This document shows, one piece after another, positions 6,101 through 46,400 of a stretch of DNA of 50,122 nucleotides. This DNA is from Bacteroidales bacterium (GTDB lineage: Bacteria; Bacteroidota; Bacteroidia; Bacteroidales; F082): positions 1 to 50,122 of the forward strand of contig JAGCFU010000089.1 of NCBI GenBank assembly GCA_017649945.1, given 5' to 3'. The position numbers were made by a program, and so were the translations under genes. Each line of letters begins with the position of its first letter. Position 1 is the stretch's first letter. The notes under the pieces were generated by a model. It saw only the letters and a list, made by a program, of their open reading frames with translations. It was not told the origin of the DNA and searched no databases.

Positions 6101-6233
6101 TGCCATCACCAGAATTCTTTTTGAACGAAATAGTATAATCACCTCTCGTTTGTCCCCACAACCTCACCGGTTGCAGCATAATAGCAAGCAGCATAACCGC
6201 TGCTGCAATTAAGATTGTAAATCTTTTTTTCAT
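117..6233 (-). CDS. Giant T9SS-secreted multidomain surface protein
   Basis: A 2038-residue protein with an N-terminal signal peptide (about residues 1-28, ending W-G-Q) and a C-terminal T9SS type A sorting tail (F-D-V-M-G-R ... N-D-K-T-Q-K-I-V-V-R). It should cross the outer membrane through the type IX system and be released or anchored at the surface. No catalytic domain is recognisable. The body is a chain of beta modules. Divergent InlB-type repeats (G-Y-x-F-S-G-W pattern) lie at about 330-490, a BACON-like segment at 495-590 and a chitobiase C-terminal-like module at 593-673. An OB-fold-like region (about 678-848) and a classical Listeria-Bacteroides repeat (about 1061-1131) follow, with more InlB-like repeats after that. 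The last 430 residues form a module shared with the giant protein at 40427-46495. An adhesin or glycan-binding role is inference. A long leader of about 135 nt precedes the start. Confidence 0.85.
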   Translation of the reverse strand: MKKRFTILIAAAVMLLAIMLQPVRLWGQTRGDYTISFKKNSGDGTGVTTSTACSTIVSSGADYLSGNVVTATNAYYNGANGLKLGTSSNAGVLKMNLSASGQVTPTSIVVSAKRYNTSNSATLSVNGATAQTVSNSSSFNNYTFTITSPITYIQLNSSKYIWVESITVNYSGGGSGTETKTYNFAGANNFYTDSNLTTHPNTGSGNNVGTIYYSDGKSFVASGTSRYFSDASSGYFLLGKSGAQISLPTFSGYKITKVTIHSSTGHSTKVSVSIVSGSYTASAAQTWETKDKDYEYSINSTYQSSALSVNVTNSYNSQFTSIKLTLEAISHTVTGAASPEAGGEVTIETTSLINGATTDIEATASSGWGFHNWTVSGTGASVVDEDDATTTFTMGTEDATVTANFWPTITYSAINGSIAGQDAGSNTVNSGDAIEPSSTITLFATPSSGYAFSGWSVSETGASLGSTSNNPTTLTMGSAPTTVTATFVASSGYITVSPTLATPSCAAQNIAFSIDTDQTLASNPTVFYTSSAGTTSTTKPDWIGDILYDDDELVVAVKQNKTSSPRTAYFKVESGSVKSDVITITQSAFTLPAPSFDPESGTVIINEYVVLLESDTTGATIYYTIGENPATPTTSSSVYDPDEGITVDETTTIKAIAVKYNISSSVATANYTVVNPLTTMDQIFSAATTAGSTATNKYVTLGNWVVSGVSTDEKTAYVTDGSGKGFITYYGSKPGFAVGNILSNTVQASLKLYNGAAEFTNLTTSTTNITVNTGGTITPITNKTIADLSGVCTGGVYTLGGLKYNSTSKYLSDGTDSIQPYNQLYSGMSFTNGETYNVTGVYLQYGNKKEILPRSSSDIVVAPGVTTSVSSISDFTYNYGGGPDSKSFTVSGANLTANISVATNSANFEISSDNSNWQTSDITISKGSGTVSATTIYVRLKSGLSSNTYNGKITVSSDGADDKEIALTGTVKQTITISGSIENGSVNATISAATVNAAVAGETVTITATADDGYRFSTFSVKDADEGNVSLSPDAKTNPATFTMPSKNVTVSATFVEAYSVTYNANGGTGEMSDPNSPYISGSTVTVLDNEFTREGYEFSSWNTKSDGSGDYYDPDDEFLINADTTLYAQWGAQSFNVALSSVANVDLLASYGDEEEIEAGANADVAYGTEITLSATNVTAGKVFIWSVKKQSDNSDVTDDVLNGDVLTVPAYAITIGGQVAELFFQYSGELTEGDYIIANGSYAMLNTLNSKRFNRQSISPSNNRIIVADASAYLWHIASSGDYWTIYNAAKKQYAVSTGTASQIELGDNSDDKCLFSVSGTATYTIVSKYNTAQSVNAILRDGGTYWACYGSGTANTLYKKAVGSKHSVAIATGITNGSVEATPSSAYEGQTVSLTATPSSGYMLDSWDVYKTDDTSTKITINNNTFTMPGYDVTVSATFRVQHTYTLVDGSTVTLEAGKHYIIASGTNGKIPAMGKQNGAVRDTVHIKVTSNTFTEVNGLYEVVLSGDNTNKWTMYDVKNSKYICATSSSSNDVGMQTSNDANGKWALSMDGSAVTLTAQGTNTKNMFRYNTGSPRFTCYSSGQSAVYLYVRDGDTDLEFHSPTTLESLTIANNETYTVESGQVLEVSEALTNNGTAANLVIEDGGQLITKSSGVNATVKKNIEQAADWGTLYTYTSDQWYFVASPVNGAAFPTGSINDQDIYKLDWANNKWLNLQHSDNSSLLEAGFQRGTGYLYASKEGNTISVAGVIQPLSNDNTATVTLANDGWNLIGNPLTCKVTVDCAFSELVNASAVTNKEANSVINPCQGIAVYGNAGTEVTFTKAATQDAVAPSNNNSLQMTLAKTITSRGDVSTKVVDNAVVSFKESKCMPKFNMIGSNTKLFIPQDDEEYSIVFSDRQGDVPLYFKANETGTYTISFAGDEMSLNGIYLIDILAEEEIDLSVNPSYTFIGSPADRMARFKIVFRNANGDGTSDIFAYQSGNDIIVSGEGELQIFDVMGRMVSRQRVNGVETVNVKSQGVYIFRLNDKTQKIVVR

Positions 6234-15544: not shown

Positions 15545-17038
15545 ATGTTAAAAAAACTACGAGTATTATTAGCGACTATAAGTCTAATACTTATAACGCT
15601 GCTTTTTCTTGATTTCTCCGGAGCGCTTCATGCTTATTTCGGCTGGATGGCGAAGCTGCAGTTTGTGCCGGCCATGCTCGCTTCGAGTTTCGTTATCGTC
15701 ATCGCAATCGTTGTGATAACATTGCTTTTCGGCAGAATCTACTGTTCCGTCATCTGCCCTCTCGGCATCTATCAGGACTGCATCGCACACGTGGCGGAGA
15801 AACGGAAAAAGAACCGCTACAGTTTCAAGCGAAGCAAGAGATATCGTTATTACATAGGCTTGGCTTTCTTTTTGCTGATTGCCTTCGGGTTCACCTCCAT
15901 CGCCATCTTCATTGAGCCTTACAGCATCTTCGGACGTTTCGCATCCAACCTCTTCAGTCCCGTTTATCGCTTGATTAACAATATGTTGGCATATTTCGCC
16001 GAACGTTGGAACAGCTACGCGTTCTATCACGTCGATGTTTATATCAAGAGTCTGCCGATGTTCATCATAGCAATAGCTTACTTCTTGATAATCACTGTAT
16101 TAGCATTAGTAAACGGACGTTGGTATTGCAACAGCATCTGTCCTGTTGGAGCGTTGCTGGGCTCCTTGTCAAAATTTTCTGTTTTAAAACCTCGTTTCGA
16201 TGAGAAAAAATGTATCAGTTGCGGTCTGTGCGAGAAAAACTGCCGCTGTTCGGCTATAGACGCTAAAAATCATGTCATCGATTACACAAAATGCGTAACC
16301 TGTTTCAACTGCGTGAGCAAATGCAACAAAGGCGCGATGAGATATGGGATTAATAAGGAGGTTAAGAGCGTTAAAGACATGAATGGCTTTAATGATGATA
16401 ACGAGGGAAAGACGTCGCGCAAGACTTTCCTCACCACGATGGCTGTTTTGGCGACTGCATCCACACTCAAAGCTCAGGAAAAGGTTGTTGACGGCGGTTT
16501 AGCCACCATTGTGAAGAAGAAAGCTCCGAAACGCCAGACGCCATTGAAACCTGCCGGCTCAGAGAGTTTTGACAACTTCACGTCACGTTGCACCGGATGC
16601 CAACTGTGTGTGCAGTCGTGCCCTAACGATGTCTTACGTGCCTCCACACGTCTCGAAACCCTGATGCAGCCTGAGATGTCATACGAGCGAGGCTACTGCC
16701 GTCCGGAATGCACCGCATGCTCGGAAGTATGCCCGGCAGGCGCAATCAAAAAGGTGACACGCGAGGAAAAGACCTCAATACAAATCGGCCATGCTGTGTG
16801 GGTCGGACAAAATTGCGTGCCGCTGCACGACGGCGTGGAATGCGGCAACTGTGCGAAACATTGTCCGTCAGGCGCAATCACCATGATGCCGTACGACCCG
16901 GATGACGCTACATCACCGAAAATACCTATCATCAACGAGGAACGCTGCATCGGCTGCGGAGCCTGCGAACACGTGTGTCCGGCAAGACCGTTCTCGGCAA
17001 TATTCGTTGAAGGTAATGTTGTACATCGTAATATATAA
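15545..17038 (+). CDS. NapH/NapG-like membrane polyferredoxin fusion
   Basis: A 497-residue iron-sulfur protein. The first half (about residues 1-215) is a NapH/NosR/CcoG-type membrane domain with four or more membrane helices and two C-P-hydrophobic-G cysteine motifs on the cytoplasmic side (C-S-V-I-C-P-L-G and C-N-S-I-C-P-V-G). Two ferredoxin clusters follow (C-I-S-C-G-L-C and C-V-T-C-F-N-C). Then S-R-K-T-F-L plus a hydrophobic stretch near 296-318 looks like an embedded Tat-type signal. The C-terminal third is NapG-like, with four more four-cysteine clusters. It looks like a NapH-NapG fusion carrying electrons between the quinone pool and a partner outside the cytoplasm. No nitrate reductase is nearby. 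The likely partner is the ferredoxin-aldo/keto reductase encoded 3 nt downstream. Fusion and clusters are seen; electron direction is not known. Confidence 0.85.
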   Translation: MLKKLRVLLATISLILITLLFLDFSGALHAYFGWMAKLQFVPAMLASSFVIVIAIVVITLLFGRIYCSVICPLGIYQDCIAHVAEKRKKNRYSFKRSKRYRYYIGLAFFLLIAFGFTSIAIFIEPYSIFGRFASNLFSPVYRLINNMLAYFAERWNSYAFYHVDVYIKSLPMFIIAIAYFLIITVLALVNGRWYCNSICPVGALLGSLSKFSVLKPRFDEKKCISCGLCEKNCRCSAIDAKNHVIDYTKCVTCFNCVSKCNKGAMRYGINKEVKSVKDMNGFNDDNEGKTSRKTFLTTMAVLATASTLKAQEKVVDGGLATIVKKKAPKRQTPLKPAGSESFDNFTSRCTGCQLCVQSCPNDVLRASTRLETLMQPEMSYERGYCRPECTACSEVCPAGAIKKVTREEKTSIQIGHAVWVGQNCVPLHDGVECGNCAKHCPSGAITMMPYDPDDATSPKIPIINEERCIGCGACEHVCPARPFSAIFVEGNVVHRNI

Positions 17039-17041
17039 TGT

Positions 17042-18427
17042 ATGGAAAATAAAAATATATCAAGAAAAGAATTCCTGCAGGTCATCGGTGCCACCACAGC
17101 AGTGTCAGCCATCGCATTAAGCGGTTGCAAATCAGAACATTATGATAAGGAAACAACATATTCTTTGGGCGACATCCCGAAGGATAAGATGACATACCGC
17201 GTCAACCACAACACCGGCGACAAGGTGTCGATTCTCGGCTACGGCATGATGCGACTGCCGTTTAAGAACGAGGCCATCGACCAGGAGATGGTCAACAAGT
17301 TGGTGGACTACGCCATGGAACACGGCGTGAACTACTACGATACCTCCCCTGTTTACTGTCGCGGCAACTCTGAGGCAGCCACAGGCATAGCGTTGAGCCG
17401 TCATCCTCGCGAGAGCTATTATCTCGCCACGAAGCTGTCGAATTTCGCGCCGCAGTTTTGGAGCCGCGAGGCCTCGATAAAGATGTATCACGACTCGTTC
17501 GAGAAGCTGCAGACTACATATTTCGACTATTATCTGCTGCATTCAGTGGGTAACGGCAGCAAAGGCGCCACAGGATGGGACACTTTCCAGCAACGTTACA
17601 TCGAAAACGGCATGATTGACTTCGTGCAGGAAGAGCGCAAGGCAGGACGCATCCGTAACCTCGGTTTCTCGTTCCACGGCGATCAACGCGTCATCGAATG
17701 GCTCTTGGACAACCACGAAAAATATCACTGGGACTTCGTGCAGATAGAGATGAACTATGTCGACTGGGAACACGCACACGACCTCAGCGCCAGCAACGTC
17801 AACGCCGACTATCTCTACAAACGTCTGACGGATCTAAATATCCCTGTCGTCATAATGGAGCCGTTGCTTGGCGGCAGATTGGCCAACCTTCCGGATGTTT
17901 TGGCGAACACTTTGAAACAGCGTACTCCGCAAAGCAGCGTGGCATCGTGGGCGTTCCGTTTCGTGGGCACCTACCCTAACGTGCTCACCGTCTTGAGCGG
18001 CATGACATACATGGAACATCTGCAGGATAACCTGAGGACTTACTGTCCGTTGCAGCCATGCACCGAAGAGGAACTGTCGTTATTGATGAATATCGCGAAC
18101 GCCTATCTGGAACATCCGTTGATTCCGTGCACAGCGTGCCAGTACTGCATGCCGTGTCCTTATGGCATCGACATCCCGACGAACTTCGGATTCTACAACA
18201 AATGCGTCAACGAAGGAAGTATCATTGAGGATTCACAGTCAAAGGATTACAGAAAAATGCGCCATCGTTTCCTCATCGAATACAACCGCCAGCTGGAGGC
18301 CGACCGTCAAGTGGAGCACTGCATAGGATGCAAGCAATGCGTCTCGCACTGCCCTCAGCACATAAACATCCCTGAGCAACTGACGAGAATCAACGACATA
18401 GTGGAGAAGCTTCTAAGGAACTCTTAA
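17042..18427 (+). CDS. Exported aldo/keto reductase with C-terminal ferredoxin domain
   Basis: A 461-residue protein. The N-terminus carries S-R-K-E-F-L followed by a hydrophobic stretch and a lipobox-like L-S-G-C (about residues 6-29), so it may be exported by Tat or Sec as a lipoprotein. Residues about 50-335 form an aldo/keto reductase barrel with the Asp/Tyr pair in Y-Y-D-T-S-P-V-Y, a Lys in A-T-K-L-S and a His in Y-L-L-H-S. The C-terminal 100 residues contain two clusters, C-T-A-C-Q-Y-C-M-P-C-P-Y-G-I-D-I-P and C-I-G-C-K-Q-C-V-S-H-C-P. The pairing with the polyferredoxin suggests that iron-sulfur centres, rather than free NADPH, supply or take the electrons. Its substrate is unknown. It is the last gene of the ligA operon and its stop codon overlaps that of the convergent symporter gene. 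Confidence 0.85.
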   Translation: MENKNISRKEFLQVIGATTAVSAIALSGCKSEHYDKETTYSLGDIPKDKMTYRVNHNTGDKVSILGYGMMRLPFKNEAIDQEMVNKLVDYAMEHGVNYYDTSPVYCRGNSEAATGIALSRHPRESYYLATKLSNFAPQFWSREASIKMYHDSFEKLQTTYFDYYLLHSVGNGSKGATGWDTFQQRYIENGMIDFVQEERKAGRIRNLGFSFHGDQRVIEWLLDNHEKYHWDFVQIEMNYVDWEHAHDLSASNVNADYLYKRLTDLNIPVVIMEPLLGGRLANLPDVLANTLKQRTPQSSVASWAFRFVGTYPNVLTVLSGMTYMEHLQDNLRTYCPLQPCTEEELSLLMNIANAYLEHPLIPCTACQYCMPCPYGIDIPTNFGFYNKCVNEGSIIEDSQSKDYRKMRHRFLIEYNRQLEADRQVEHCIGCKQCVSHCPQHINIPEQLTRINDIVEKLLRNS

Positions 18428-22118: not shown

Positions 22119-23766
22119 AAAAGCTGTTATAATAGTTGTAGCAGCCATTCTTGTCTGTTTGGCGTTACTGTATCATTGTGTCCCGATCGAGAGTCCTATG
22201 CCGTTATGGCTCTCGGTGTTGCCGCCTATCATAGCAATCGTGATGGCACTATTCCTGAAAGAGGTGATATCAGCGCTGTTTCTCGGCGTGCTCTCAGGCA
22301 CCTTCATCATGGCATTGTTCAACGGGCAAGAACCGGGGACGGCATTAGGCAGCGGATTATTACGAGTTGTCGACACATATATCACAGGCTCACTCTTCGA
22401 CTTCGACCATGTCACCATCATCGTTTTCACACTGACAATAGGCGGAATGGTGAAGATCATCTCGGCAAACAGAGGCATGCAAGGTATCGTAAACTGGCTG
22501 CTGCGACGTGCCAAAGGGCCGCGTTCCGGACAGATCATGACGTTCTTCATGGATATATGCATCTTCTTCGACGACTATTCAAACACTTTGATGGTCGGAA
22601 ACACCATGCGACCCGTTGCCGACAAACTGAAAGTGTCGCGTGAGAAACTTGCTTACATCGTCGACTCCACATCAGCACCAGTGGTCGCCATCGCTTTCGT
22701 CACCACTTGGATTGGCGCGGAGCTGAGCTACATCCAGGAAGGCATCGACGTCATCGGGATCGACGCATCGGCTTATTCCGTGTTCTTCCACTCACTAAAA
22801 TACAGTTTCTACCCTCTTCTCACCCTCGCGTTCGTCCTGATGATAATACACAGCGGTCGCGACTTTGGGCCGATGCTGAAAGCGGAAAGAGACGCACGTT
22901 TAAAAGAAGATTTTTGTTCGGAAAAATCTGATAACGTAGAGCAACCTGCTCACAGCATTGACGCATTAGTTCCTTTATTGACTTTGATTTTCGGAACCAT
23001 CCTCGGACTTTTCGCGACAGGCTACGATGCCTCGGTTTGGCATGATTCCAACCTCGACTTTTTCGCAAAACTCTCGACAACAATAGGCAATGCCAATTCT
23101 TACACCGCTTTGATATGGTCGTCGCTCCTATCTCTGCTCTCCGCAATAATAATGACATTGCTACGTGGCTCACTCGAGTTCGGCAAAATCATGGAAGAGA
23201 TGATCGAAGGCTTCAAAATGATGTTCAACGCTGTTCTGATTCTCACGATGGCTTGGTCTATCGCATTGGTTACCAAAGACATGCACACGGCAGAGTTTGT
23301 GTCGGAAATACTGCTGAAGCTTTCGCTCTCACCTGTCATCGTTCCGGCTTTGACATTCATTTTAGCCGCCTTGATAGGTTTCTCGACAGGTACTTCATGG
23401 GGCACGATGGCGATATTATATCCGTTGATTTTACCTGCATCATGGATGCTTTGTCAAGACCAAGGATTTAGCGTCGCGGCCACCATGCCGTTGTTTTACA
23501 ACGTTGTAGCCTCGGTGATGGCCGGCGCCGTCATGGGTGACCACTGCTCGCCAATATCCGATACCACCATCATGAGCTCGATGGCCTCTGGATGCAACCA
23601 CCTGCAACACGTCAAGACACAGATGCCTTACGCACTGACAGTGGGTTCAGTAGCTTTGTTAATTGGAGTTTTGCCAACAGCGTTAGGATTGCCTTCGTGG
23701 CTGGCGTTTGTGGTAGCGATAGCAACGTTAGTGATTGTTGTAAGGTTCGTCGGAAAGAAAGTCTAA
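22108..23766 (+). CDS. NhaC-family Na+/H+ antiporter
   Basis: A 552-residue inner-membrane protein with about twelve hydrophobic segments. Family marks include the early P-x-I-x-A-I-V-M-A-L-F-L-K-E-V segment, an F-F-D-D-Y-S-N-T-L-M-V-G stretch (near residue 152), F-S-T-G-T-S-W-G-T and the late G-A-V-M-G-D-H-C-S-P-I-S-D-T-T motif. It exchanges Na+ for H+ or a related substrate (some members swap malate or amino acids). The first helix starts at about residue 4. It follows fusA by 25 nt with no promoter of its own, so it is probably read from the fusA promoter. Its stop overlaps the stop of the convergent threonine aldolase gene. Confidence 0.85.
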   Translation: MKNKKAVIIVVAAILVCLALLYHCVPIESPMPLWLSVLPPIIAIVMALFLKEVISALFLGVLSGTFIMALFNGQEPGTALGSGLLRVVDTYITGSLFDFDHVTIIVFTLTIGGMVKIISANRGMQGIVNWLLRRAKGPRSGQIMTFFMDICIFFDDYSNTLMVGNTMRPVADKLKVSREKLAYIVDSTSAPVVAIAFVTTWIGAELSYIQEGIDVIGIDASAYSVFFHSLKYSFYPLLTLAFVLMIIHSGRDFGPMLKAERDARLKEDFCSEKSDNVEQPAHSIDALVPLLTLIFGTILGLFATGYDASVWHDSNLDFFAKLSTTIGNANSYTALIWSSLLSLLSAIIMTLLRGSLEFGKIMEEMIEGFKMMFNAVLILTMAWSIALVTKDMHTAEFVSEILLKLSLSPVIVPALTFILAALIGFSTGTSWGTMAILYPLILPASWMLCQDQGFSVAATMPLFYNVVASVMAGAVMGDHCSPISDTTIMSSMASGCNHLQHVKTQMPYALTVGSVALLIGVLPTALGLPSWLAFVVAIATLVIVVRFVGKKV

Positions 23767-24785
23767 ACCAACTTCTTCAGCGCATCCACAAAGTTATTGA
23801 TATCCTCTTCCGTCGTGTCAAACGAGCACATCCAACGGACAACGTCTTTATCCAAATCCCAGTCGTAGAAGAAATACTGTTTCTGCAACTCGGTCCACAC
23901 CGTTCGCGGAAGCTGTGCAAAGACTCCGTTGACTTGAACAGGATAAACGACTTTCACCTGAGGGATATCTTTTACCTTATTATATAACAGCTGCGCCATT
24001 TTGTTGGAATGCTCGGCATTTCTGCGCCAGAGCTCATCCTTGAAATATGCCTCGAACTGCACAGCCAGAAATCTCATCTTCGAGCAGAGCTGAAGTCCTT
24101 GTTTGCGGCGGTATTTGTAGTCTTTCGCCAACTCATGATTCAGAAACACCACCGACTCGCCTATCATCAGACCGTTTTTGGTGCCGCCGAATGAAACGAC
24201 ATCGACACCGGCGTCAGTAGTCATCTCCTTGAACGTGCAGTTCAACGCCACCGCTGCGTTTGCGAGACGTGCGCCGTCCATGTGCAGATACATGTTATGC
24301 TCATGCGCCAACTTCGCCAACGCCTTGATTTCACTGATAGTATAAAGCGTCCCAAGCTCCGTCGATTGCGTTATCGTGATGGCTTTGGGCTGCGAATGAT
24401 GCTCGAAACCGAAGCCGTGCATGCGTGTCATCACCAGCTCAGGAGTAAGTTTGCCATCAGGTGTGTCGACAGTCAAGAGACGGCATCCTACGATACGCTG
24501 CGGCGCTCCGCATTCATCCACGTTGACATGCGCTGTCTCGGCACAAATCACCGCCTCATGCGAACGTACCATAGCATCAATGGCCATGGTGTTGGCACCG
24601 GTACCGTTAAACACAAACGACACGACAGCCTGCTCGCCAAAATGTTGCTTGAACAATTTCTCAACGCGAGCGCAATATTCATCGTCGCCATACGCCAAAG
24701 CATGTACCACATTGGCATCGGCTATAGCCTTCAAAACCTCAGGACTGATGCCCGAATGGTTGTCACTTCCGAATCCTCGTTTCAT
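23763..24785 (-). CDS. ltaE: Low-specificity threonine aldolase
   Basis: A 340-residue PLP enzyme of fold type I that splits threonine or allo-threonine to glycine and acetaldehyde. It begins M-K-R-G-F-G-S-D-N-H-S-G and has H-M-D-G-A-R-L-A-N-A in the cofactor-binding region. The Schiff-base lysine lies in S-F-G-G-T-K-N-G near residue 200. Length is typical. The ATG follows the stop of the HdrD/E-like gene by a single base, so it is the last gene of the six-gene redox operon. A direct chemical link with that complex is not obvious: the aldolase itself makes no redox equivalents, though glycine and acetaldehyde can feed redox steps. The gene symbol is by homology. Confidence 0.9.
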   Translation of the reverse strand: MKRGFGSDNHSGISPEVLKAIADANVVHALAYGDDEYCARVEKLFKQHFGEQAVVSFVFNGTGANTMAIDAMVRSHEAVICAETAHVNVDECGAPQRIVGCRLLTVDTPDGKLTPELVMTRMHGFGFEHHSQPKAITITQSTELGTLYTISEIKALAKLAHEHNMYLHMDGARLANAAVALNCTFKEMTTDAGVDVVSFGGTKNGLMIGESVVFLNHELAKDYKYRRKQGLQLCSKMRFLAVQFEAYFKDELWRRNAEHSNKMAQLLYNKVKDIPQVKVVYPVQVNGVFAQLPRTVWTELQKQYFFYDWDLDKDVVRWMCSFDTTEEDINNFVDALKKLV

Positions 24786-24786
24786 A

Positions 24787-26538
24787 TTATTTTTTTAATT
24801 TTTCACAAACAATTTCTGCGATGTCCTGAACCTGCACCGGCGATTTTCTCGCGAATGTCTTGAGGCACAACGGACACGCTGTCACAATCTCATCAGGGTG
24901 GTTGAACATCAGGTCGTTGACCGAATTTTCTGTTATCTCATCGCGTTCCTGCTGTGTCAGATTGAAACTGCCCAGACTTCCGCCGCAGCAGATGCTCAAC
25001 TCTTTCTCCGACTTCGCTTTACGCAGATTGCCAACGCTTTCGATGACTTCACGAGGCTCGTCGTAAACACCGAAGGCTCTTCCGAGCTCGCACGGATCGT
25101 GATAAACATAGTTCACGTCACCCTTGTCGACTTGCAACTTGCCACTTTTTATCAGCTCGTCGATATACTGCGTATGATGTTGAATCTCAATTCCTTCAAG
25201 ATGATATTCCTCTTTGAAAACTTTATAGCAGATCGGACAGGAAAGCACCAATTTCTTAGCTCCCGATTTCTTAATCAGTTCGGTATTTTTCTCAATCATT
25301 GCCTTGGCTTCAGCCGTCTTTCCACTGAGCAACATCGGCCGGCCGCAACAGATACCACCGTCTTTGTCAATAAACTCGTAATCCTCGCCTGCCGCCTCCA
25401 TGATTTGCTTCATCGCACGCATTATTTTAGGCGTGAGTTGGGTCATACAGCCGGCGAAATAGAGGACGTGTGGGTTATTGACGGAGATTTCTCCACTACG
25501 CTGCGCTTCGGTCGAAATGACGTCTAGGTAAGAATGGTCGCTATTAATATTATAAGGTGTAGCCGCTCTCTGGCTGAATTTGATGTCGCACGATTCGATG
25601 CTGACTGGACAAACCATAACACATTTGCCGCACATCAAGCAGGTCTCCGCGATACGTTGTGCTTCCTCAGAATCTTTGTTTCTAAGTTTCTTCATGAAAT
25701 ATGCCGAAGTGTTGTCGCTCATCTTATCATTGACGCTCATCGGGCAGGCGTCGATACACAGACCGCATGAAGGACATGAATAAATCTGCGCCAGAGCGAA
25801 TCCTTTACGAGGCTCACGAGCCTTCAGTCCGGCATGTCTTAACAAGATAAACAGCGCCTCTGTCGGGATGTGCATGTAACGCGTAAACGGCAGCAGACAC
25901 ATAAAAATCATCAAATCGATGGAATACAGCCACCAAAATGCCATGATATTGGTCTTTTCCGCAACCAATCTGAACGGGAAAATCGTCCACAAAGCGAAAC
26001 GAATCATATTATCGGCGAAACCGAACTTCGTTACACGCTTCACTCCCACCATCCCTGAGTAGATCTTCTTCACCACAGCGATGAAAATGCCAGTGATAAT
26101 CACGATGAGGAAGAAATCCATCAGGAAGGCGAACACCGGAGTCTCAGTCGCGAAATGTTTGTAGAAAATCGGGTAATAACAGTTCGTGAATGTGCGCTCA
26201 AAACCCTGAACGTCAACACCTTCGAGCGGTTTGAGCGTAAACAGCATCACGTGACCGATGGCGATAAGCATAAACCAGCCGAACGCAATGGACGAATGCA
26301 TGTAACCGAGAATCGGGTTGCGTTTCCAAATCTTCACATGGAAGAGGCAGTCGCCAAACAGGTCGCGGATGTTAGCCCATGCTGTCTTTGGCGTCACCAA
26401 AGAGCGCCAGAACTGTTTCCGGTCGTCCTTCGGTAGCTGAGCAATGATTCTCAAAAGCCCCACGAGGCAGTACGTCAGCACAAAAGCCATGCCGAGTACA
26501 AACGGGAGCACAAATGGATGGAAAATATACTGGTTCAT
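24787..26538 (-). CDS. HdrD/HdrE-like membrane fusion (NarI-type domain plus CCG iron-sulfur domain)
   Basis: A 583-residue protein. The first 230 residues form a NarI/DsrM-like membrane domain of about five or six helices. H81 and H96, fifteen residues apart, are candidate haem b ligands. Two ferredoxin clusters follow (C-P-S-C-G-L-C-I-D-A-C-P and C-L-M-C-G-K-C-V-M-V-C-P). Then come two complete CCG domains: A-G-C-M-T ... I-C-C-G-R with C-P-I-C, and H-D-P-C-E ... I-C-C-G-G with C-P-L-C. This is the layout of HdrD fused to a quinone-facing cytochrome, as in DsrMK-type and HdrDE-type enzymes. It probably passes electrons between the quinone pool and the soluble HdrABC-like subunits. The start overlaps the previous stop (ATGA), showing translational coupling. 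Family is firm; substrate unknown. Confidence 0.88.
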   Translation of the reverse strand: MNQYIFHPFVLPFVLGMAFVLTYCLVGLLRIIAQLPKDDRKQFWRSLVTPKTAWANIRDLFGDCLFHVKIWKRNPILGYMHSSIAFGWFMLIAIGHVMLFTLKPLEGVDVQGFERTFTNCYYPIFYKHFATETPVFAFLMDFFLIVIITGIFIAVVKKIYSGMVGVKRVTKFGFADNMIRFALWTIFPFRLVAEKTNIMAFWWLYSIDLMIFMCLLPFTRYMHIPTEALFILLRHAGLKAREPRKGFALAQIYSCPSCGLCIDACPMSVNDKMSDNTSAYFMKKLRNKDSEEAQRIAETCLMCGKCVMVCPVSIESCDIKFSQRAATPYNINSDHSYLDVISTEAQRSGEISVNNPHVLYFAGCMTQLTPKIMRAMKQIMEAAGEDYEFIDKDGGICCGRPMLLSGKTAEAKAMIEKNTELIKKSGAKKLVLSCPICYKVFKEEYHLEGIEIQHHTQYIDELIKSGKLQVDKGDVNYVYHDPCELGRAFGVYDEPREVIESVGNLRKAKSEKELSICCGGSLGSFNLTQQERDEITENSVNDLMFNHPDEIVTACPLCLKTFARKSPVQVQDIAEIVCEKLKK

Positions 26539-26846
26539 CGTGTAATGTCTAACAAAATCTTACGAATATTGATGCCGCGCGGACACACCAAAGTGCATTT
26601 GCCGCAAAGCATGCATTTCTGAATCATTTTCTTGGCCTGTTCTTCCTTGCCTCTCTGAAGCATCAGAAGAATCCTGCGGAAGCTCATCTCGGTGAAGTTT
26701 CCGGCAGTGCAAGTCGCTGTGCATGAGCCACAAGCGATGCAGGTGTTGATGTCAGGATTTGTCTCCTTAAGACTGTTGAACGTCGTCAGGTCGACACTGT
26801 CCATCTTGACATGCGAGCTTGGTGATAAACAGAATCCGAAATCCAT
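26535..26846 (-). CDS. Short HdrC-like ferredoxin subunit
   Basis: A 103-residue protein with two four-cysteine clusters, C-I-A-C-G-S-C-T-A-T-C (near residues 38-48) and C-M-L-C-G-K-C-T-L-V-C-P (near 81-92), the spacing typical of HdrC. It lacks the C-terminal half seen in the larger HdrC-like gene of the same operon. It should carry electrons between the flavoprotein and the membrane-bound HdrD/E-like protein. It starts 2 nt after the HdrA-like stop and its own stop overlaps the next start by four bases. No signal peptide is present, so it is cytoplasmic. Confidence 0.85.
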   Translation of the reverse strand: MDFGFCLSPSSHVKMDSVDLTTFNSLKETNPDINTCIACGSCTATCTAGNFTEMSFRRILLMLQRGKEEQAKKMIQKCMLCGKCTLVCPRGINIRKILLDITR

Positions 26847-26848
26847 AA

Positions 26849-27859
26849 CTACCTGTTGTTTATGTAGTTAAACACTTCAACTGCCACTGAGCGTGCCTCT
26901 GCTATGGTGTCGGGCAACGACTTCGGTGCTGTGCAGGTACCGGCGACGAAAACACCATCCTTTGCAGTGTCGTTCATGCCGAGATATGTGTCTTTAATCT
27001 GCATGAAACCGTCGCTGTTGTTGGCAACGCCGAGCTTCTGCTGTATCGCGTCGATGCTCTTGTTCTTCTCCATGCTGCACATCAACACAAGCAAGTCAAG
27101 GGTCATTTTCAATGGCTTACCAAACAAGGTATCCTCCGCCTTGATGACAAGGCGTCCGTCCATGTCCTCCGAGACCTCGCAAACCCTGCCGCGTACACAT
27201 TTCACGTCAAAATCCTTTTGCGTGCGCAGATAAAGGTCTTCGTAACCCGGACCGAACATACGCAAATCCATATAGAATGTGTAAACCTCAGCATCCGGAA
27301 ACACTTCCTTCATCTCGCAGGCTTGCTTCAACGCCGTTGTGCAGCAGACTTTAGAACAATAAGTATTGCACACCTTCACGTCACGGGCGCCTACGCAGTG
27401 CACGAAACCTATTTTCTTCGGGTTGTTGATGCGCTCGTCCTTGCCTGTCCTGAAAAACTTCTCGAGTTCGAGGCTTGTTATCACGTTGTTATATATTCCG
27501 TAGCCGTATTCCTGTTTTCTCTCCGCATTGAAAAGGTCAAAACCCGTCGCAAGCACCACAGCCTTAGCATCGATGGTGGTGTTATCGCTCAAAACGGCCT
27601 TAAAACCATTCTCATTACGTTGAATATCAGCCACTTCGGTATTCATACGGACATCCACTCCTTTCACGTTGGCGAGCATCTGCTCCACCACGTCTTTGGC
27701 AGGATGAAACGCCGGGAACAGCCTGTCCCATTGTGCCACGTGACCGCCGAGGGCGTTGCTTTTCTCAATAATAATAGGTGTCTGCCCGAGCTTCTGCAGC
27801 TGCGTGGCGGCTTCCATTCCGGCGGCTCCGCCGCCGATGATCAATATATTCTCTTTCAT
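26849..27859 (-). CDS. HdrA/QmoA-like FAD protein, short form
   Basis: A 336-residue flavoprotein. An FAD dinucleotide fold opens the protein (I-I-G-G-G-A-A-G-M-E-A-A) and a second nucleotide motif A-T-G-F-D lies near residue 108. The hallmark HdrA iron-sulfur insertion, H-C-V-G-A-R-D ... C-N-T-Y-C-S-K-V-C-C, lies at about 153-175. It lacks the N-terminal and the C-terminal ferredoxin extensions of full-length methanogen HdrA (around 650 residues), so it resembles the core or QmoA. Whether it can bifurcate electrons is open. The frame is open from a TTG at 27874 overlapping the upstream stop, but the ATG at 27859 (11-nt gap) is preferred. It sits between the HdrB-like and short HdrC-like genes. 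Confidence 0.87.
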   Translation of the reverse strand: MKENILIIGGGAAGMEAATQLQKLGQTPIIIEKSNALGGHVAQWDRLFPAFHPAKDVVEQMLANVKGVDVRMNTEVADIQRNENGFKAVLSDNTTIDAKAVVLATGFDLFNAERKQEYGYGIYNNVITSLELEKFFRTGKDERINNPKKIGFVHCVGARDVKVCNTYCSKVCCTTALKQACEMKEVFPDAEVYTFYMDLRMFGPGYEDLYLRTQKDFDVKCVRGRVCEVSEDMDGRLVIKAEDTLFGKPLKMTLDLLVLMCSMEKNKSIDAIQQKLGVANNSDGFMQIKDTYLGMNDTAKDGVFVAGTCTAPKSLPDTIAEARSVAVEVFNYINNR

Positions 27860-27870
27860 AACGTTGATTT

Positions 27871-28941
27871 TCAAACTGATTTAATACATGACGGGCACAT
27901 CGGCTGACCTAAGTCCTTGCCGTTCACACCCTGATATTTCTTTTTCGGGTCGTATGGTATTCCCATCTTCTCAAGCAGCGGCTCGATGGCGACCTGATGC
28001 ATCTGCAAGCCGAGGTCCCACGGGTCGTAACCCATCACCAAGCCTGCCACCTCCTCGTATGTCAAGGCCGGGATACCGTAGCCGTTCTTGCCGTATGTCT
28101 TGCCGGTCTGCTCCGCAATGACATATTGCCATCTGTCTAAGAAATACGGGCATCCCGGACAGTTGGTGATAATCAAATCCGGCTCGTAAGGTTCCATCGA
28201 CTCGAATTTCTTGTGCGTGTTCGACTCAGAATAGCCTCTGTTGGCCTGCACGAAATACTGACGGAAACCGAATCCGCAGCAATGACGGCGCTCAGGATAA
28301 TCGACGACCTCGCCGCCCCATGCCTCAATCATTCCGACGAGGACATGCGGATACTCAGCGCCACCGAAGCCCTTCGACGGAAACATCTTCGAGTAGTGGC
28401 ATCCAATATGTTCGACAACCTTCAAAGGCTTGCCTGTCTTGACATTCACGAGTTTGAACTTAGCTTGTTTTGCAATCTCAAACCTGAATTTATATATAAG
28501 GTCGCTGGCATGTGCAAGATATTTCGGCTTTACGAACTCTTTCTTGCAGGAATCCCACAGATATTGGCGTATTTTCGCCTCGAGTTCAGGATATTCGTGC
28601 CATGTTTCAAGAGTCTCGGTGTAGCATCCGAACGATGTGATACACGAGCACACGTAGTTTTCGTAACCGCTCTCCTTCATCAGCGCAAACTGACGCGCAA
28701 TGATTGTCATCGCCGTCTCCTGCGGTATTGTGTCGCTGTGATAGGCAATGCCGCCACATGTTGTATGATATGGGTTCTCGTAAAAATCCTTGCCAAGTTT
28801 ATTCCTCGTGATGTCCAAAAATGTCACCTCCGAACCAGGCCAAAACGCCTGACGTATGCAGCTTCTCACATAAAAATAATGGTCATCGGGAATGTCTTTC
28901 TGATAATCAGCCCAGATCTTCTGTTTTCCTTCAATAATCAT
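27871..28941 (-). CDS. HdrB-like CCG-domain subunit
   Basis: A 356-residue cytoplasmic protein. The C-terminal CCG domain is complete: I-G-C-H-Y, then H-C-C-G-F-G-F, then N-C-P-G-C-P-Y-F. In HdrB this type of cysteine set holds the unusual noncubane iron-sulfur clusters where disulfide chemistry occurs. The N-terminal half keeps only a partial set: C28, C62 in T-T-C-G-G where a C-C-G would be expected, then C98, C100 and C106. One of the two active-site clusters may therefore be changed or lost. It follows the HdrC-like gene by 29 nt and precedes the HdrA-like gene. The product is probably the catalytic or disulfide-handling part of the complex; the substrate is unknown. Confidence 0.85.
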   Translation of the reverse strand: MIIEGKQKIWADYQKDIPDDHYFYVRSCIRQAFWPGSEVTFLDITRNKLGKDFYENPYHTTCGGIAYHSDTIPQETAMTIIARQFALMKESGYENYVCSCITSFGCYTETLETWHEYPELEAKIRQYLWDSCKKEFVKPKYLAHASDLIYKFRFEIAKQAKFKLVNVKTGKPLKVVEHIGCHYSKMFPSKGFGGAEYPHVLVGMIEAWGGEVVDYPERRHCCGFGFRQYFVQANRGYSESNTHKKFESMEPYEPDLIITNCPGCPYFLDRWQYVIAEQTGKTYGKNGYGIPALTYEEVAGLVMGYDPWDLGLQMHQVAIEPLLEKMGIPYDPKKKYQGVNGKDLGQPMCPSCIKSV

Positions 28942-28945
28942 TTTA

Positions 28946-28975
28946 TATTCAAAGATTTAATATTCAAAATTTAAT
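28946..28975. repeat. 15-bp tandem duplication between hdrC- and hdrB-like genes
   Basis: TATTCAAAGATTTAA is followed at once by TATTCAAAATTTAAT, two nearly equal units that fill most of the 29-nt gap and touch the stop of the upstream gene (28971). It is probably slipped-strand duplication. Confidence 0.5.
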
Positions 28976-29684
28976 GATTTAAGTGTTTTTCCCAGTCGTT
29001 TTCAGTATACACTTTCATGAAATATTCCTCATCGGAAAGATGTTCCTTTTCCGCCTCTTGATGTGCGTCGTTCAACACCTGCTCCATCAACTCGGTGGCA
29101 CCTGTCACGTCGAAAATGTTTTTCAGCTGGTCGAGACTTTCCTTCGGAATCTTACGCAGTCCGCCTGGACCATCGCCGTCGAGGTTAGAACCCATGCGTG
29201 CATGCAAGTCATCCAAATTGTCGTTAATCCACTTACCGACAGGACCGAATTCCTTGTGAGTCTCAAATGCAAAAGTGCGCGGATAAACGCAATAACCGTA
29301 GTTTAAGATATTACTACATAAATCTTTAACCACGATATACTGCTGGCGGCCTTTCTCCGACTGCATGTAAAGCCCGCTTCGCATCGAGAGCTTACGCAAC
29401 GCCATGATGACCAATCCTGGAGCATTAGCTCTTGGACAACGTGTCACGCACGACATGCACTCTCCGCAGTACCAAATCTGATCGCTCTTTAAGAGGTCTT
29501 CCAAATCATCCTCGTTTTTGCGAGCCACAATGTTCACTATGTTTTTGGGATTGTATTTGTAGAACTCCGCGGCCGGACAAACAGCCGTGCACACGCCGCA
29601 GTTCATGCAAGCCTTCATTCCCTCCTTAATCCTGTAATCCTTATATAATTCCTCTACAAGATGTCCTTTGAATCTATATTCCAT
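28971..29684 (-). CDS. HdrC-like iron-sulfur subunit, long form
   Basis: A 237-residue protein with two ferredoxin clusters near the N-terminus: C-M-N-C-G-V-C-T-A-V-C-P (about 26-37) and C-G-E-C-M-S-C-V-T-R-C-P (about 73-84). The remaining 150 residues form a helical extension of the kind seen in HdrC and QmoB/C-type partners. It is the first gene of the six-gene redox operon and has an exact -7 box about 45 bases upstream. It would carry electrons between the HdrA-like flavoprotein and the HdrB-like protein. It is cytoplasmic. The family is clear; the physiological donor and acceptor are not. Confidence 0.87.
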   Translation of the reverse strand: MEYRFKGHLVEELYKDYRIKEGMKACMNCGVCTAVCPAAEFYKYNPKNIVNIVARKNEDDLEDLLKSDQIWYCGECMSCVTRCPRANAPGLVIMALRKLSMRSGLYMQSEKGRQQYIVVKDLCSNILNYGYCVYPRTFAFETHKEFGPVGKWINDNLDDLHARMGSNLDGDGPGGLRKIPKESLDQLKNIFDVTGATELMEQVLNDAHQEAEKEHLSDEEYFMKVYTENDWEKHLNH

Positions 29685-40392: not shown

Positions 40393-40426
40393 TAAGTTCA
40401 ATCAAGTTTATTTTAACTAATTGACA

Positions 40427-43400
40427 ATGAAATTTTTTTATAGATTTTTACGATGCGCCGCTCTGATGGTCATGATGATGCCTTTAATGGTGTTGGGACA
40501 GATTACCCCTACAACCGACACCAATGGGAACGGCACAATTGAAGATAATGAGAAAAATCTCTATCTGATTCAGACGAATCAGTTCGAGAGTTTCTATATA
40601 GCGCCTAATGGTAGCAATCTTAATACCGCGAACCTTCCTCACGCTAGTATGCTGTGGTATTTTTTGGAAGCGGAATATGACGAAGTCAATGAAATCCAAT
40701 ACTACTACATTATCAATAATTCCACCAATAAATACATGTGCCACGGTGGTGGTACATCAAACACCACAGATAGCAGAGGTGTCACGCTAGTTGACAAGGA
40801 TGCGTCCAATGAGGAGAGATGTAAGTTCAAATTTGTTGAAGACAACTCTAATGAAACGGACGGTTTTTACAATATAGATGTTAAAGGTAATCCCACTTAT
40901 TTTGCATTGAACAAGCAAAGTGGTAATGTATCCACTAATAATATCAGATTGACTGATAACCAATACGTTCATAACACAAACTCCAAATGGAAGTTTATTC
41001 CTTACGATGGGACTTTAGTTTGGCCAAATCCACCATTTACTGTATCAACAGATATAGTTAAGCATTACTATAAGATACATAACAAGAATGCTAATACATA
41101 CTATATTTCCACAAACCCTTCCACAAGTAAGGTAACATACTCCAGCACGGAAAGCGATTATATGACTTGGTATTTCAAAGAGGCTCCTTCCGGTGGCTTG
41201 ATGAAATACTATTACATCATTAATCCAGCATCTGGAGACAAATACATGTACTTTGACGGAGACACAGGTACCGGCAATCAAACCGATGCAATAAGCCTAA
41301 AAGGCATAAACGAAGCCAATGTCGTAGCTGACAGATTCATGTTTGTCATTGTGCAAGCAGCAGTAATTGGCAATAACGATACTCCTATAAATGGGTATTA
41401 TATGATTGTTCCAAAACTGTTAATTGGCAATCTTTGGAATAGCAACAGTCTTGGGAATAACTCACCGTCAAACGGCAGTAATATGGGAATCATACCAGGT
41501 AGAGGTGCTGACGTTTACTCGCATTGGTCTTTCGAGGCAACGAATGATTGCTCGACACCTACAATCACTTATTCAAGCGCAACAGGTAAAATAACTATCA
41601 CTACTATTCCAGTTGATGCTGATATCCATTATACAACAAACGGAGATGAGCCATCCTCCAGTGTTGGAGAACTCTATAATGATCCGTTTGTGGTATCTTC
41701 TCCAGTGACCATCAAGGCCATTGCCACCAAAACAGGTTTTTCTGATTCAGGGATAGCGACGAAATCTTTCGATCAAGTTGCCACACCTGATTTTGAAATG
41801 ACAGACGATGGAACAGTAAGGCTGACTTGTGCCACTGACGGAGCTAGCATCTATTATGAGATGGGCTCCACACCAAGCGATCCAACCACATCAAGCACAC
41901 ATTATGCTGGTTTTATCAAAAACGCAGCTGGTCAACATATCAAAGCCATTGCGGTGAAAGATGGGTTGATAAATTCCGCCATATTGGAAACCGGACAGAT
42001 TACATTTACCTGCGCCACACCAGTCATCAGAGAAACTTCGCCCACAACGTTTTCCATCATATGCAGTTATCCTACCAGCGGAGTCACTATCCGATACAAC
42101 AAAGGAATCAATCCTGATGACCCTACACCAGAATCAGGTACCATATATAACGGCCCCGTGACTTTCAATGAGTCTGAAACCGTCAAAGCCATCGCTTATG
42201 CTACGAATTATACCCCTTCCGATGTGGTGACATGGCCTCATGATTACTCACAGGATTATCTGACATTCAGAGTATTGACTGGTGGTACAATTGGATGGAA
42301 AGCTTATGAAGGTCTTACCAAAACAATTCAATATAGTATAAATGATGGAGATTGGACTGTTTGGACATCCACTTCTGATGGAGCAACTATTTCCGTTCAA
42401 GCAGGAAATCTTGTAAGACTTAGAGGAACTGCGTATCCGTATGCTACAAGTAAAGATGCATACTCCGGATTCGAAGGTGGGACTGCCACGTATGAAATTG
42501 AAGGCAATATCCATAGCTTGATATACGGAGATGATTTTGCAGGAAACAACACAATGCCGGACAACACTTATATGTTCTGTTCATTGTTCAAAAAGTCAAA
42601 AGCAACCTCTGCCGAGAACTTGATTCTTCCAGCTACCACTCTTAGAAATTATTGTTATAGAGCATTGTTCAGCTATGCAACCAGTTTAGTGAAACCTTGT
42701 GCTCTTCCAGCTACAACACTTGCAACCGGTTGTTATTGGTATATGTTTGAAAGATGTGCAATAACTGCGGCTCCAGAACTTAACGCTACAACTCTTGTTA
42801 ACGAGTGTTACGGTCACATGTTTAATTTGTGCTCAAACCTTAGTTATATAAAATGTACAGCTGTAGATGGATTTTCAGCTTCAAAAGCATTAGAAAACTG
42901 GGTTTCTGACGTAGCATCTTCTGGTGTGTTCGTGAAAAATTCAAATAAGACATGGCCTTCCGGAATTTCTGGAATACCATCCGGTTGGACAATATATAAT
43001 GACTATCTCTTATATAGTCCAGAAATCAGTTGTGATGGTGAATATATAACAATAACTTGTACTACACCAGAAGCATCTATATATTATAGATTGAATCAAA
43101 CAGGAGACTTCTCAGAGTATAGCTCTCCTATACCTTTTAATGAAACTGCAACTGTTGAAGCATATTCAACTAAAGACAACAATACAAGCAGTACCGAAAT
43201 TATTACATATGAAAAATATGACTCTCCATTAGATGAATCCACAAGATTGTTGGATTCTTGGACTTATGGTGGCAACCAAGTCACATTACCATACTCCGTA
43301 AATTGCGAAAATGGACATTCGTCAAGTTATTCAAAAGGATCATATACATTTGAGACAACAGCCACTTTATATAGACGTCAGCCTACTTATTTGTGGTTCC

Positions 43401-46400
43401 AGCATGCCGACCAATCAGCAGACATTTATGTTGATGATGTATTTGTGACCACTCACTGGGGTGGCTACAATGCTTTCTTTGTTGATATAAGCAATTATGT
43501 ACATCAAGGAACAAACCAAATCAAAGTTGTACTGAACAACACAACAAGAGATGTATTAGCACCTAATGCCGGTGACTTCAATTTCAATGCCACTCTTGGT
43601 AAGGTTAAATTGTTGACAAGTCCGGTGTTGCCATCAATTGATTATGGATATGATGGATTCCATATCACATCAACAGTGACATCGCAAGAAGCAACCATAA
43701 CAGTAAAAACAGCTGTTCCAGCAGAAGCAACTGTCATCTGTTCTATAAATGGTGACAACTGTGAATATTCAAACACCCAGATAAGTACAGGTGAAGAAAT
43801 CACATTCGAGACAACCATCAACAATCCGCATCTTTGGAATGGTATATCGGATCCATATCTATATGATGTGACACTCACCATTAAAAAAGATGATGTAGTA
43901 TATCATCAATTCGAGAGAGGATATGGTCTCAGGTTCTATGAATATGTCATCAATAAAACTGTTGGCAATGAAAACTACACAGGATTCCTTCTCAATGGCT
44001 CGCCTTATCTTTTAAGAGGTGTTTGTACGCACCATGATTTGGAAGGAAAGGCCAATGCCCTTACTGATGAAGATATTGCCAATGACTTTGCCATAATTCA
44101 AGAACTTGGATGTAATTTCGTTCGTCTCGCACACTATCCACATCCTAAAGAAGTTTATGACTGGTGCGATAGGCTTGGAATCATTGTCCAAACCGAAGTT
44201 CCTTGTGTAAACAGATTCCAAAATACATTACCACAGGATTATTATGACCATCTATATATTCAATATGAGGATATGGTAAGACAGCATTACAATCATCCTT
44301 GTATTATGTTCTGGGGACTTTTCAATGAGGCAACTACTGATGATACTTCAATTGCCAAACCAAGACTTGAAGATTATAGGACATATATTAAGAATATTGA
44401 TCCGGAACGTTGGGTTGGTTATGTTGTAAGTCATAGTTCGTCAAATCCAAGTAGTTTGATGGGCAATCCTAATATGGATTGGTTTGGATGTAATATTTAC
44501 GTTGGTTGGTATATTAGCCCAGATATAAATGACCCAACATACCAATTGAATACACGTAAAACTAACATCATTACGAACTTACATAAACCATTGGCATTTT
44601 CTGAATATGGTTGCGGTGGCACACAAAGCTGTCACTCTGATGACTTTATGACAACAACAACAAGGGGTAACAACCCAAGACACGACATTGAATATCAGAT
44701 GTGGTTGCATGAAGGACATATTGCTGCTATTAAGAATTTTCCGGAACTTTTGTTCACATCTCAATGGCAATTATTTGATATAGCAGTGTCTAGTAGAAGA
44801 GAAGGATATACAATATGCCTTGATGGAGAAAGCACATATGAAGATAATAATTTAAAATATTTGAACAATAAGGGACTTGTTGAAAGAGACCACAAGACAA
44901 AGAAGGATCCATTCTATTTGTACAAGGCTTGGTGGAACCAGACAGACAAATTTGTACACATTTGCGGAAAGGATTATGAAAAGTTAAATGGCAGAGCAAT
45001 AAAGTGCTATACAAACGATGGTGATAAATTGACACTTTTTGTAAATAATGTAGAGATTCAAACTGTCACAGTTGAAAACAATATTGCGACATTCACGGCA
45101 AGAGATTTCAATCAAAGTGATGTGATTAGAGTAAATGGCGCAACAACATACGATGCATTTACTTTAACTAATGACTTCATAACCGATGGCAATTGGGACG
45201 TGGCCACCAACTGGAACGGTCATGCGGTACCTACTGCTGGCAGCGATGTGATCATCAGAGCTGAATGTACAATTCCGAATGGAGTTGTAGTCCAAGCCAA
45301 CCATATCACTATTGGTGAAAACGGTAGCCTCACTATTGCCGAAGGCGGTCAGCTCATCCACAGCAACGAAGGTGTTGTTGCTACTGTTGAGAAGGACATC
45401 ACAGCCTACACGGTAATCCAAAATCAAGGCGAGGAATTTACCGACGGCTGGTATTTCATCGCCTCGCCCATCACGGACGACTACACACCCACAGGCAGCA
45501 TGGTTGAAAACACCTACGACTTGTATCGCCTCAACAACACCACTTGGGAGAACTACAAACAATCGGGTGATCACTATCATTTCAACCTTGAATCAGGCCG
45601 TGGTTATCTTTACGCAAACAGCGAAGACATAACGCTTCAGTTCACTGGAACCCTCAAACCATACGCGGCAAGCGAATCCGTAAACGTCAGCACAGGCTGG
45701 AACCTCATCGGCAACCCATTCGCTTACAATGTTTACGCCAACCGCGCATTTTATAAGATGAATGATGACAAGACAGGTATTGAGGCCGTTTCAGCATTCA
45801 GCACAAGTCCTATCGCCCCCTGCACAGGCATCGTGGTCGAAGCCGAAACAGATGGCGACGTAATCTTCAGTAAGGAAGCACCCGCGCAAAGCCAAGGCAG
45901 CAACGGCAGTTTGCTGATTGCATTGAAAAAAGCCAACGCACGCAACAATGCCTTGTTAGACAACGCCATCGTGAGCTTCAATGAAGACGGCCAGCTTGGC
46001 AAGTTCTACTTCGGCACACAGAACGCCAACATCTACATCCCGCGAAATGGCAAGGAATATGCTATAGCATTTTCCAACTGTCAAGACGACATTCCATTGA
46101 ATTTCAAGACAGCAGAAACTGGCATCTACACCATCAGTTTTGAAGGCGAAGAGATGTATCTCAATAGCATTTATCTCATTGATATGCTAACAGGTCAAGA
46201 AATCGACCTGAGCTTCAACCCGAGCTACACCTTCTTGGGCTCAGCTGCTGATCGTTCTGAGAGATTCAAGATTGTGTTCAAAACAGGCTTTGAGAATGCT
46301 CCGAGCGATATCTTCGCATACCAGAACGGCAACGACATCGTCGTCAGTGGCGAAGGCGAACTCCAGATCTTCGATGTGATGGGGCGCTTGGTCTCGACAC

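Follow-up and report, generated by a model that had tools for sequence, protein, structure and literature searches.

A conserved five-gene Hdr operon of Bacteroidales, sister to sHdr and linked by context to sulfonolipid synthesis

Six open reading frames (ORFs) lie head-to-tail on the minus strand at positions 23763-29684 of contig JAGCFU010000089.1 (assembly GCA_017649945.1), a 50,122-nucleotide stretch from a Bacteroidales bacterium of the F082 lineage that is called the window here. Five of them resemble subunits of heterodisulfide reductase (Hdr) and form an operon at 24787-29684, minus strand, in the gene order HdrC1-HdrB-HdrA-HdrC2-HdrDE. The junctions along the six ORFs are, from 5' to 3', +29, -4, +2, -4, and +1 nt. 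The host genome, a draft of 1.98 Mb at 84% completeness, has the HdrDE gene in a single copy. The genes, with the features by which each was assigned, are as follows.

28971 to 29684, minus strand: HdrC1 (sHdrC1-like), soluble 2x[4Fe-4S] electron carrier, 237 amino acids (aa); Fer4 domains.
27871 to 28941, minus strand: HdrB (sHdrB1-like), 356 aa; CCG domain and alignment to 5ODC chain B.
26849 to 27874, minus strand: HdrA, sHdrA type, 341 aa, with a flavin adenine dinucleotide (FAD)/Rossmann domain; Pyr_redox_2, PDB profile, and tree.
26535 to 26846, minus strand: HdrC2, small 2x[4Fe-4S] protein, HdrC-like, 103 aa; Fer4_9/Fer4_17.
24787 to 26538, minus strand: HdrDE, an HdrE-HdrD fusion, 583 aa; membrane domain, Fer4 dicluster, and two CCG motifs.
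23763 to 24785, minus strand: pyridoxal phosphate (PLP)-dependent beta-eliminating-lyase/threonine-aldolase family protein, 340 aa; PF01212, +1 nt behind HdrDE.

All five Hdr proteins score far under the listed NCBIfam equivalog cut-offs for true Hdr or Qmo subunits. An earlier note on this DNA, made from the sequence alone, had reported consecutive Hdr-like redox genes with junctions of -4 to +29 nt, and this is borne out. Its count of six genes comes down to five, since the PLP aldolase is not conserved beside the Hdr genes.

Conservation was examined in two sets of loci. The named loci are the best 80 of at least 569 relatives and are close kin of one another; many of the nearest come from ruminant-gut metagenome-assembled genomes (MAGs), and one uncultured Bacteroidales MAG carries a locus whose HdrB is 99% identical to that of the window, which supports an origin of the operon in this order. 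The order-wide set comprises the 104 loci, the window's included, that carry the operon's class of HdrA (HdrA1) among 295 sampled Bacteroidales genomes; the fetched stretches are at most 20 kb, and some are short. HdrA1 was called at 376 bits or more against an HdrA profile; its members score 376-539 bits, and the next group reaches at most 282. All five Hdr genes were recognized in 74 of the 80 named loci; in five of the remaining six the end of the locus cuts the operon, and the sixth, L158, is without a recognized HdrC2 but has the other four. Order-wide, all five genes lie within 6 kb of HdrA and on its strand in 81/104 loci (HdrB in 101, HdrDE in 99, HdrC1 in 95, and HdrC2 in 86), counts in which contig ends cut some loci and the short HdrC2 may escape detection. 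Four loci (L244, L245, L251, and L259) have the variant order C1-C2-DE-B-A. Strong homologues of HdrB are widespread across Bacteroidales, and only distant ones (22-34% identity) were found elsewhere in the phylum, in a 198-genome sample; within the host's family, HdrDE proper was seen in some members of the window's genus and nowhere else. The aldolase was rejected as an operon member: it has a relative in just one other of the 104 stretches (L262), some genes past HdrDE and not directly behind it, and none above 100 bits in the 80 named loci. We conclude that the operon is real, widely conserved, and made up of five genes. With HdrA1 in 104/295 genomes it is common in Bacteroidales; the note had said that such genes occur in other members of the order.

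Five Bacteroidales loci (L075, L077, L079, L081, and L083) hold a second HdrC1-HdrB pair without HdrA, the HdrB being 60-64% identical. This pair adjoins DUF134, NifX-like, and Mrp/ParA-ferredoxin ATPase genes in varying combination (L077 was scanned, the others assigned by clustering); L081 and L083 also have a Cys/Met-metabolism PLP enzyme there, and L083 a flavoprotein of the pyridine-nucleotide-disulfide-oxidoreductase family.

HdrA carries four Cys residues (C160, C173, C177, and C178) that are invariant in 104/104 homologues. By Pfam it has flavoprotein domains only and no ferredoxin domain, which sets it apart from the HdrA of bifurcating HdrABC. Its top PDB profile match is 6TJR (337 bits, full length), which we take to be sHdrA of Hyphomicrobium; the next, the HdrA of 9SFI, gave 324 bits over two stretches. 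In a tree of 54 HdrA sequences (242 columns, midpoint rooting), HdrA1 was monophyletic (support, 0.932) and formed a clan with 6TJR and the proteins of two loci, L088 and L089 (support, 0.995), both of which are contained in the HdrA profile by which members were selected. The 9SFI HdrA and all other sampled HdrA-like proteins fell outside this clan. HdrA1 is sister to sHdrA, which is the flavoprotein subunit of the sulfite-forming, sulfur-oxidizing Hdr-like system (sHdr), and is not nested inside it; the HdrA1 sequence predicts an sHdrA-type flavoprotein. L088 and L089 belong to a lineage of the phylum outside the class and carry a type-II-like sHdr cluster with C1, B, A, an HdrD-like B3, two electron-transfer flavoprotein (ETF) subunits, and EMO-like, GcvH-family, and DsrE-family proteins; the GcvH-family protein is LbpA by context.

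Two forms of sHdr have been described, type I as shdrC1B1AHC2B2 and type II as shdrC1B1AHB3 with etfAB (PMC11582611; this and the other PMC-numbered sources are cited from the parts available), and the function of sHdr-LbpA has been detected through sulfite formation (PMC10332631). The operon resembles both types in its order, C1-B-A-C2-(D), and in an HdrA of the same length from the sister clade, and its HdrB shares a three-Cys N-terminal motif with the sHdr-type HdrB of L088 and L089. It differs in having a membrane HdrDE in place of HdrB2/B3, and in a context of anabolic sulfonolipid synthesis, whereas sHdr serves dissimilatory sulfur oxidation. Neither an sHdr H gene nor etfAB was found in the window or among the recurrent neighbours looked at, so that sHdr synteny is not reproduced.

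The eight Fer4 Cys of HdrC1 are retained in 94/95 homologues, and the eight Cys of HdrC2 in 86/86. In HdrB the C-terminal CCG motif is complete (C181, C221, C222, C261, and C264; conservation in 101 homologues). HdrDE consists of an N-terminal membrane domain, a Fer4 dicluster, and two intact CCG motifs; eight Fer4 Cys, ten CCG Cys, and His67, His81, and His223 are present in 97-99 of 99 sequences. The three His residues are candidate haem-b ligands, and HdrDE is predicted to combine a haem-binding membrane domain with an HdrD that has two CCG motifs. Archaeal HdrDE has the same modules, but in two chains. In EtfD/EMO, membrane domain, two Fer4, and two CCG modules stand in one chain, as here (PDB 9OJN; PMC13083937); EtfD has five helices, and a simple hydropathy window gives about four hydrophobic stretches for HdrDE. 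Unlike EtfD, HdrDE has Cys398 at the position of Thr539 and Ile436 at that of His583, that is, an Hdr-like Cys set, and it is co-encoded with HdrABC and not with ETF. Because of these two replacements, HdrDE is closer to the Hdr pattern than to the ETF-oxidizing one. The HdrDE proteins of the window and of L072 are without a stretch of about 30 residues of the membrane domain (GGxFLT...) that is found in the other aligned Bacteroidales.

A survey of conserved neighbours across Bacteroidales, one of the checks that the note had proposed, links cysteate synthase and SulA to the operon in relatives; several gene names in it rest on one scanned representative per cluster. In the named loci a 428-aa gene lies directly behind HdrDE, and two representatives of it are cysteate synthase by TIGR03844 (485 and 465 bits; cut-off, 324.9). 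By similarity to these, cysteate synthase stands directly 3' of HdrDE in 34 of the 69 named loci, close kin of one another, that have at least 1.4 kb downstream. In L112, L113, and L124 it is followed on the same strand by a SulP-family permease (scanned in L112). Order-wide, cysteate synthase directly follows HdrDE in 3/104 loci, which all belong to family f48. SulA together with a ThrC/cysteate-synthase-like gene leads directly into HdrC1 in L255 and L261 (families f77 and f137), and L255 has a short-chain dehydrogenase/reductase (SDR) behind HdrDE. In L245 and L251, from one genus of f114, SulA, a ThrC-like gene, an SDR, and an ORF of the glyoxalase/dioxygenase superfamily precede HdrC1 on the same strand; L244 has a ThrC/cysteate-synthase-like gene and an SDR upstream of the operon. 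SulA was identified by 614 bits to 7U7H, the structure of A. finegoldii SulA, versus 211 to serine palmitoyltransferase; against the cysteate-C-fatty acyltransferase 28EH it scored 535 bits. The ThrC-like gene, at 108-120 bits, is under the TIGR03844 cut-off, and it also lies beside or near SulA in L278, L284, and L290. By a rough post hoc Poisson estimate, in which each 3-Mb genome is given three pathway genes and proximity means +/-8 kb, the probability of such proximity by chance in 4 of 36 operon-positive families, counted in a one-per-family sample, is 0.003.

Genes for a sensor kinase (about 320 aa) and a NarL/MctR-like regulator precede the operon on its strand in L182, L217, L238, L241, L247, L260, L262-L265, and L267; the two genes are divergent in L224, and L192 has the regulator alone. 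This two-component system is a possible signal for regulation of the Hdr operon.

The sulfonolipid (capnine) pathway comprises cysteate synthase, SulA/CapB, and CapC (PMC9304779, PMC11211663, and PMC10191378), and its genes adjoin the complex, or lie near it, in relatives. The parts available of these three papers contain no mention of an Hdr complex or of the origin of sulfite.

Cysteate synthase needs sulfite, and the usual sulfite-forming step is (P)APS (3'-phosphoadenosine or adenosine 5'-phosphosulfate) reductase (CysH). We compared the occurrence of SulA (called at E of 1e-100 or below), HdrA1, and CysH (TIGR02055, E of 1e-8 or below) across the 295 genomes. CysH matched in 181 genomes, with scores above the family cut-off in 155; three weak rows were dropped (G283, G435, and G436), which left 178 CysH-positive and 117 CysH-negative genomes. 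The P values are corrected for phylogeny only by taking one genome per family (G198-G305), a sample in which handle order is taken to match the family labels, an agreement visible in the listed rows and presumed in the others. SulA occurs in 216/295 genomes, in 100/104 with HdrA1 versus 116/191 without (odds ratio, 16; P = 9e-13). This association lies in the CysH-negative genomes, where 36/37 with HdrA1 versus 16/80 without have SulA (P = 1.7e-16); in the CysH-positive ones there is none (64/67 versus 100/111; P = 0.26). With one genome per family the split is the same: 14/14 versus 8/25 for CysH-negative (P = 2.5e-5), and 21/22 versus 41/47 for CysH-positive genomes (P = 0.42). Other HdrA-like proteins, taken as a control, were not linked to SulA (P = 0.41 and 0.76). 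One or the other sulfite source, HdrA1 or CysH, is present in 200/216 SulA-positive versus 15/79 SulA-negative genomes. SulA and cysteate synthase are both present in the window's genome, an 84% complete draft in which no (P)APS reductase was matched; two relatives, G288 and G442, likewise have SulA, cysteate synthase, and the operon without the reductase.

By descent, then, the operon is a sister of sHdr, and by context it is tied to sulfonolipid synthesis. On balance we lean toward the reading that its five genes encode an anaerobic, quinone-linked, membrane-anchored sHdr-like complex that would make sulfite for sulfonolipids. HdrC1-HdrB-HdrA-HdrC2 would form a soluble core handling sulfur and flavin, and HdrDE would take the place of the sHdrB2/B3-EtfAB-EMO output. 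Reduced or carrier-bound sulfane sulfur would be oxidized to sulfite without oxygen, at HdrB and/or HdrD, and electrons would travel by way of HdrC1/HdrC2 and the HdrA flavin (FAD) to the Fe-S clusters of HdrDE, then to haem b and into the (mena)quinone pool. The quinone link that the note had suggested agrees with the hydrophobic stretches and conserved His residues of this arm, which make it look quinone-linked. Cysteate synthase would consume the sulfite (phosphoserine + sulfite to cysteate), and SulA would carry cysteate to 3-ketocapnine, toward sulfonolipids. If the operon makes sulfite for this pathway, it would therefore be an alternative to the (P)APS reductase route. The potentials of the sulfite/sulfide couple (about -0.12 V), menaquinone (about -0.07 V), and fumarate (about +0.03 V) make anaerobic sulfite formation feasible. 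We give even weight to the further proposal that this would be a third sHdr form, bound to the membrane, free of ETF and LbpA, and independent of oxygen, which would convert sulfur to sulfite on the quinone pool for biosynthesis, in gut and rumen Bacteroidales unable to reduce sulfate.

Several results weigh against the reading of a complex that makes sulfite for sulfonolipids. The N-terminal CCG motif of HdrB has three of five Cys (C28, C62, and C100), short of the two sites of HdrABC, and by alignment to 5ODC chain B a Ser stands at the position of the bridging Cys, C81 of methanogen HdrB (the role of Cys81/Cys234 there is taken from PMC13083937). Three loci of family f41 (L249, L253, and L258) have HdrB-HdrA with no HdrC or HdrDE seen, and L181, L195, and L236 have HdrA without a nearby HdrB. 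The adjacency of TIGR03844 to the operon is clade-specific, and a sulfonolipid gene is visible in just 8/104 fetched operon stretches. Over all genomes TIGR03844 is not enriched with HdrA1 (36/104 versus 50/191; P = 0.14), and the case therefore rests on SulA, the CysH split, and synteny. Four genomes with HdrA1 have no SulA match. Sixteen SulA-positive genomes have neither HdrA1 nor (P)APS reductase, so another sulfite source must exist; among them is G373, of the window's genus and 99% complete, with SulA and cysteate synthase and without operon or reductase. HdrA1, SulA, and CysH occur together in 64 genomes, and the complex is therefore not simply a replacement. The main gap is the sulfur carrier, because LbpA was not identified. 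LbpA is described as essential in known sHdr (PMC10332631). No GcvH-family/LbpA gene lies in the window; a full-length GcvH-family protein, one each, is found in 34 of the 36 genomes with operon and SulA and without reductase (it is absent in G211 and G418) and in 28/36 of a comparison group, counts in which GcvH and LbpA are not told apart. TusA is found in 8/36 versus 14/36 of the same groups and is missing from the window's genome. These counts do not support LbpA and TusA as general partners.

Two explanations without sulfite formation compete with a sulfite-forming complex. One, which we consider unlikely, is a general quinone-linked thiol/disulfide oxidoreductase of EMO/HdrDE type that keeps redox balance in either direction, its link to SulA reflecting lineage or habitat. 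HdrDE does retain both complete CCG motifs, as Hdr-type proteins do, and 96/104 of the fetched operon stretches show no sulfonolipid gene; yet the association with SulA is confined to reductase-negative genomes, holds when each family is represented by one genome, and does not extend to other HdrA-like proteins, and tight linkage with cysteate synthase or SulA recurs in four families. The other would have the complex serve sulfonolipid/sulfonate metabolism by direct oxidation of cysteine or another thiol to a sulfinate or sulfonate, or by supplying or removing electrons elsewhere in the pathway. It draws on the same synteny and co-occurrence, and 47 genomes with SulA and HdrA1 have neither an over-cut-off TIGR03844 protein nor a relative among the matches listed, which reach down to about 89 bits. 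The kinship with sHdrA points instead to conversion of sulfane sulfur to sulfite, and the later known pathway steps need no membrane redox complex (PMC9304779 and PMC11211663); SulA is PLP-dependent (PMC9304779), and the sulfonolipid ketoreductase was assayed with NADPH (PMC11211663). We regard this second explanation as improbable.

QmoABC consists of an HdrA-family flavoprotein and a quinone-type membrane subunit, a pairing that the operon shares, and the note had called the genes Qmo-like or possibly bifurcating and ferredoxin-linked. Homology of HdrA, HdrB, and HdrC aside, little speaks for a Qmo-like complex or a bifurcating HdrABC with a ferredoxin, hydrogenase, or formate dehydrogenase partner, and we hold either to be very improbable. 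The operon has HdrB and HdrD with a single HdrA-type gene, and its top listed Qmo score is 45 bits (qmoC) against a cut-off of 300, which sets it apart from Qmo; HdrA belongs to the short type, has none of the ferredoxin domains found in bifurcating HdrA, and groups with sHdrA; and no MvhD, hydrogenase, or formate dehydrogenase gene is among the recurrent neighbours looked at. An ETF:quinone oxidoreductase (EMO/EtfD) module that, like that of type-II sHdr, takes electrons from EtfAB would match the architecture of HdrDE, which equals that of EtfD (PDB 9OJN; PMC13083937), but it is highly unlikely and was rejected on Cys398 and Ile436 at the Thr539 and His583 positions, with etfAB not among the recurrent neighbours looked at.

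If a sulfite-forming complex is correct, a widespread operon gains a role and the sHdr family an anaerobic, anabolic branch. The sulfonolipids made by Alistipes, Odoribacter, and their relatives are under study as bioactive metabolites of the gut. Our literature search, which most subscription papers lay beyond, found no description of this operon's role, no paper joining "sulfonolipid" and "heterodisulfide reductase", and no description of the sulfite source of anaerobes without (P)APS reductase; PMC9304779 and PMC11211663 do not use the word "sulfite" in their main text, in the parts available. As the earlier note had it, we saw nothing in the window that identifies a substrate. The note also gave such genes no established role in Bacteroidales. 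The proposed role is no longer open-ended, because both the neighbouring genes and the co-occurrence across genomes point toward sulfonolipid synthesis as its partner.

Elsewhere in the window, a redox pair lies at 15545-18427 on the plus strand, a polyferredoxin (Fer4_5 and Fer4) and, behind it, an aldo/keto reductase that carries a ferredoxin domain. Two giant ORFs of 2038 and 2024 aa, lie at 117-6233 and 40421-46495, the former with InlB-type repeats, the latter encoding a GH2 glycosidase that has Fn3-associated domains.

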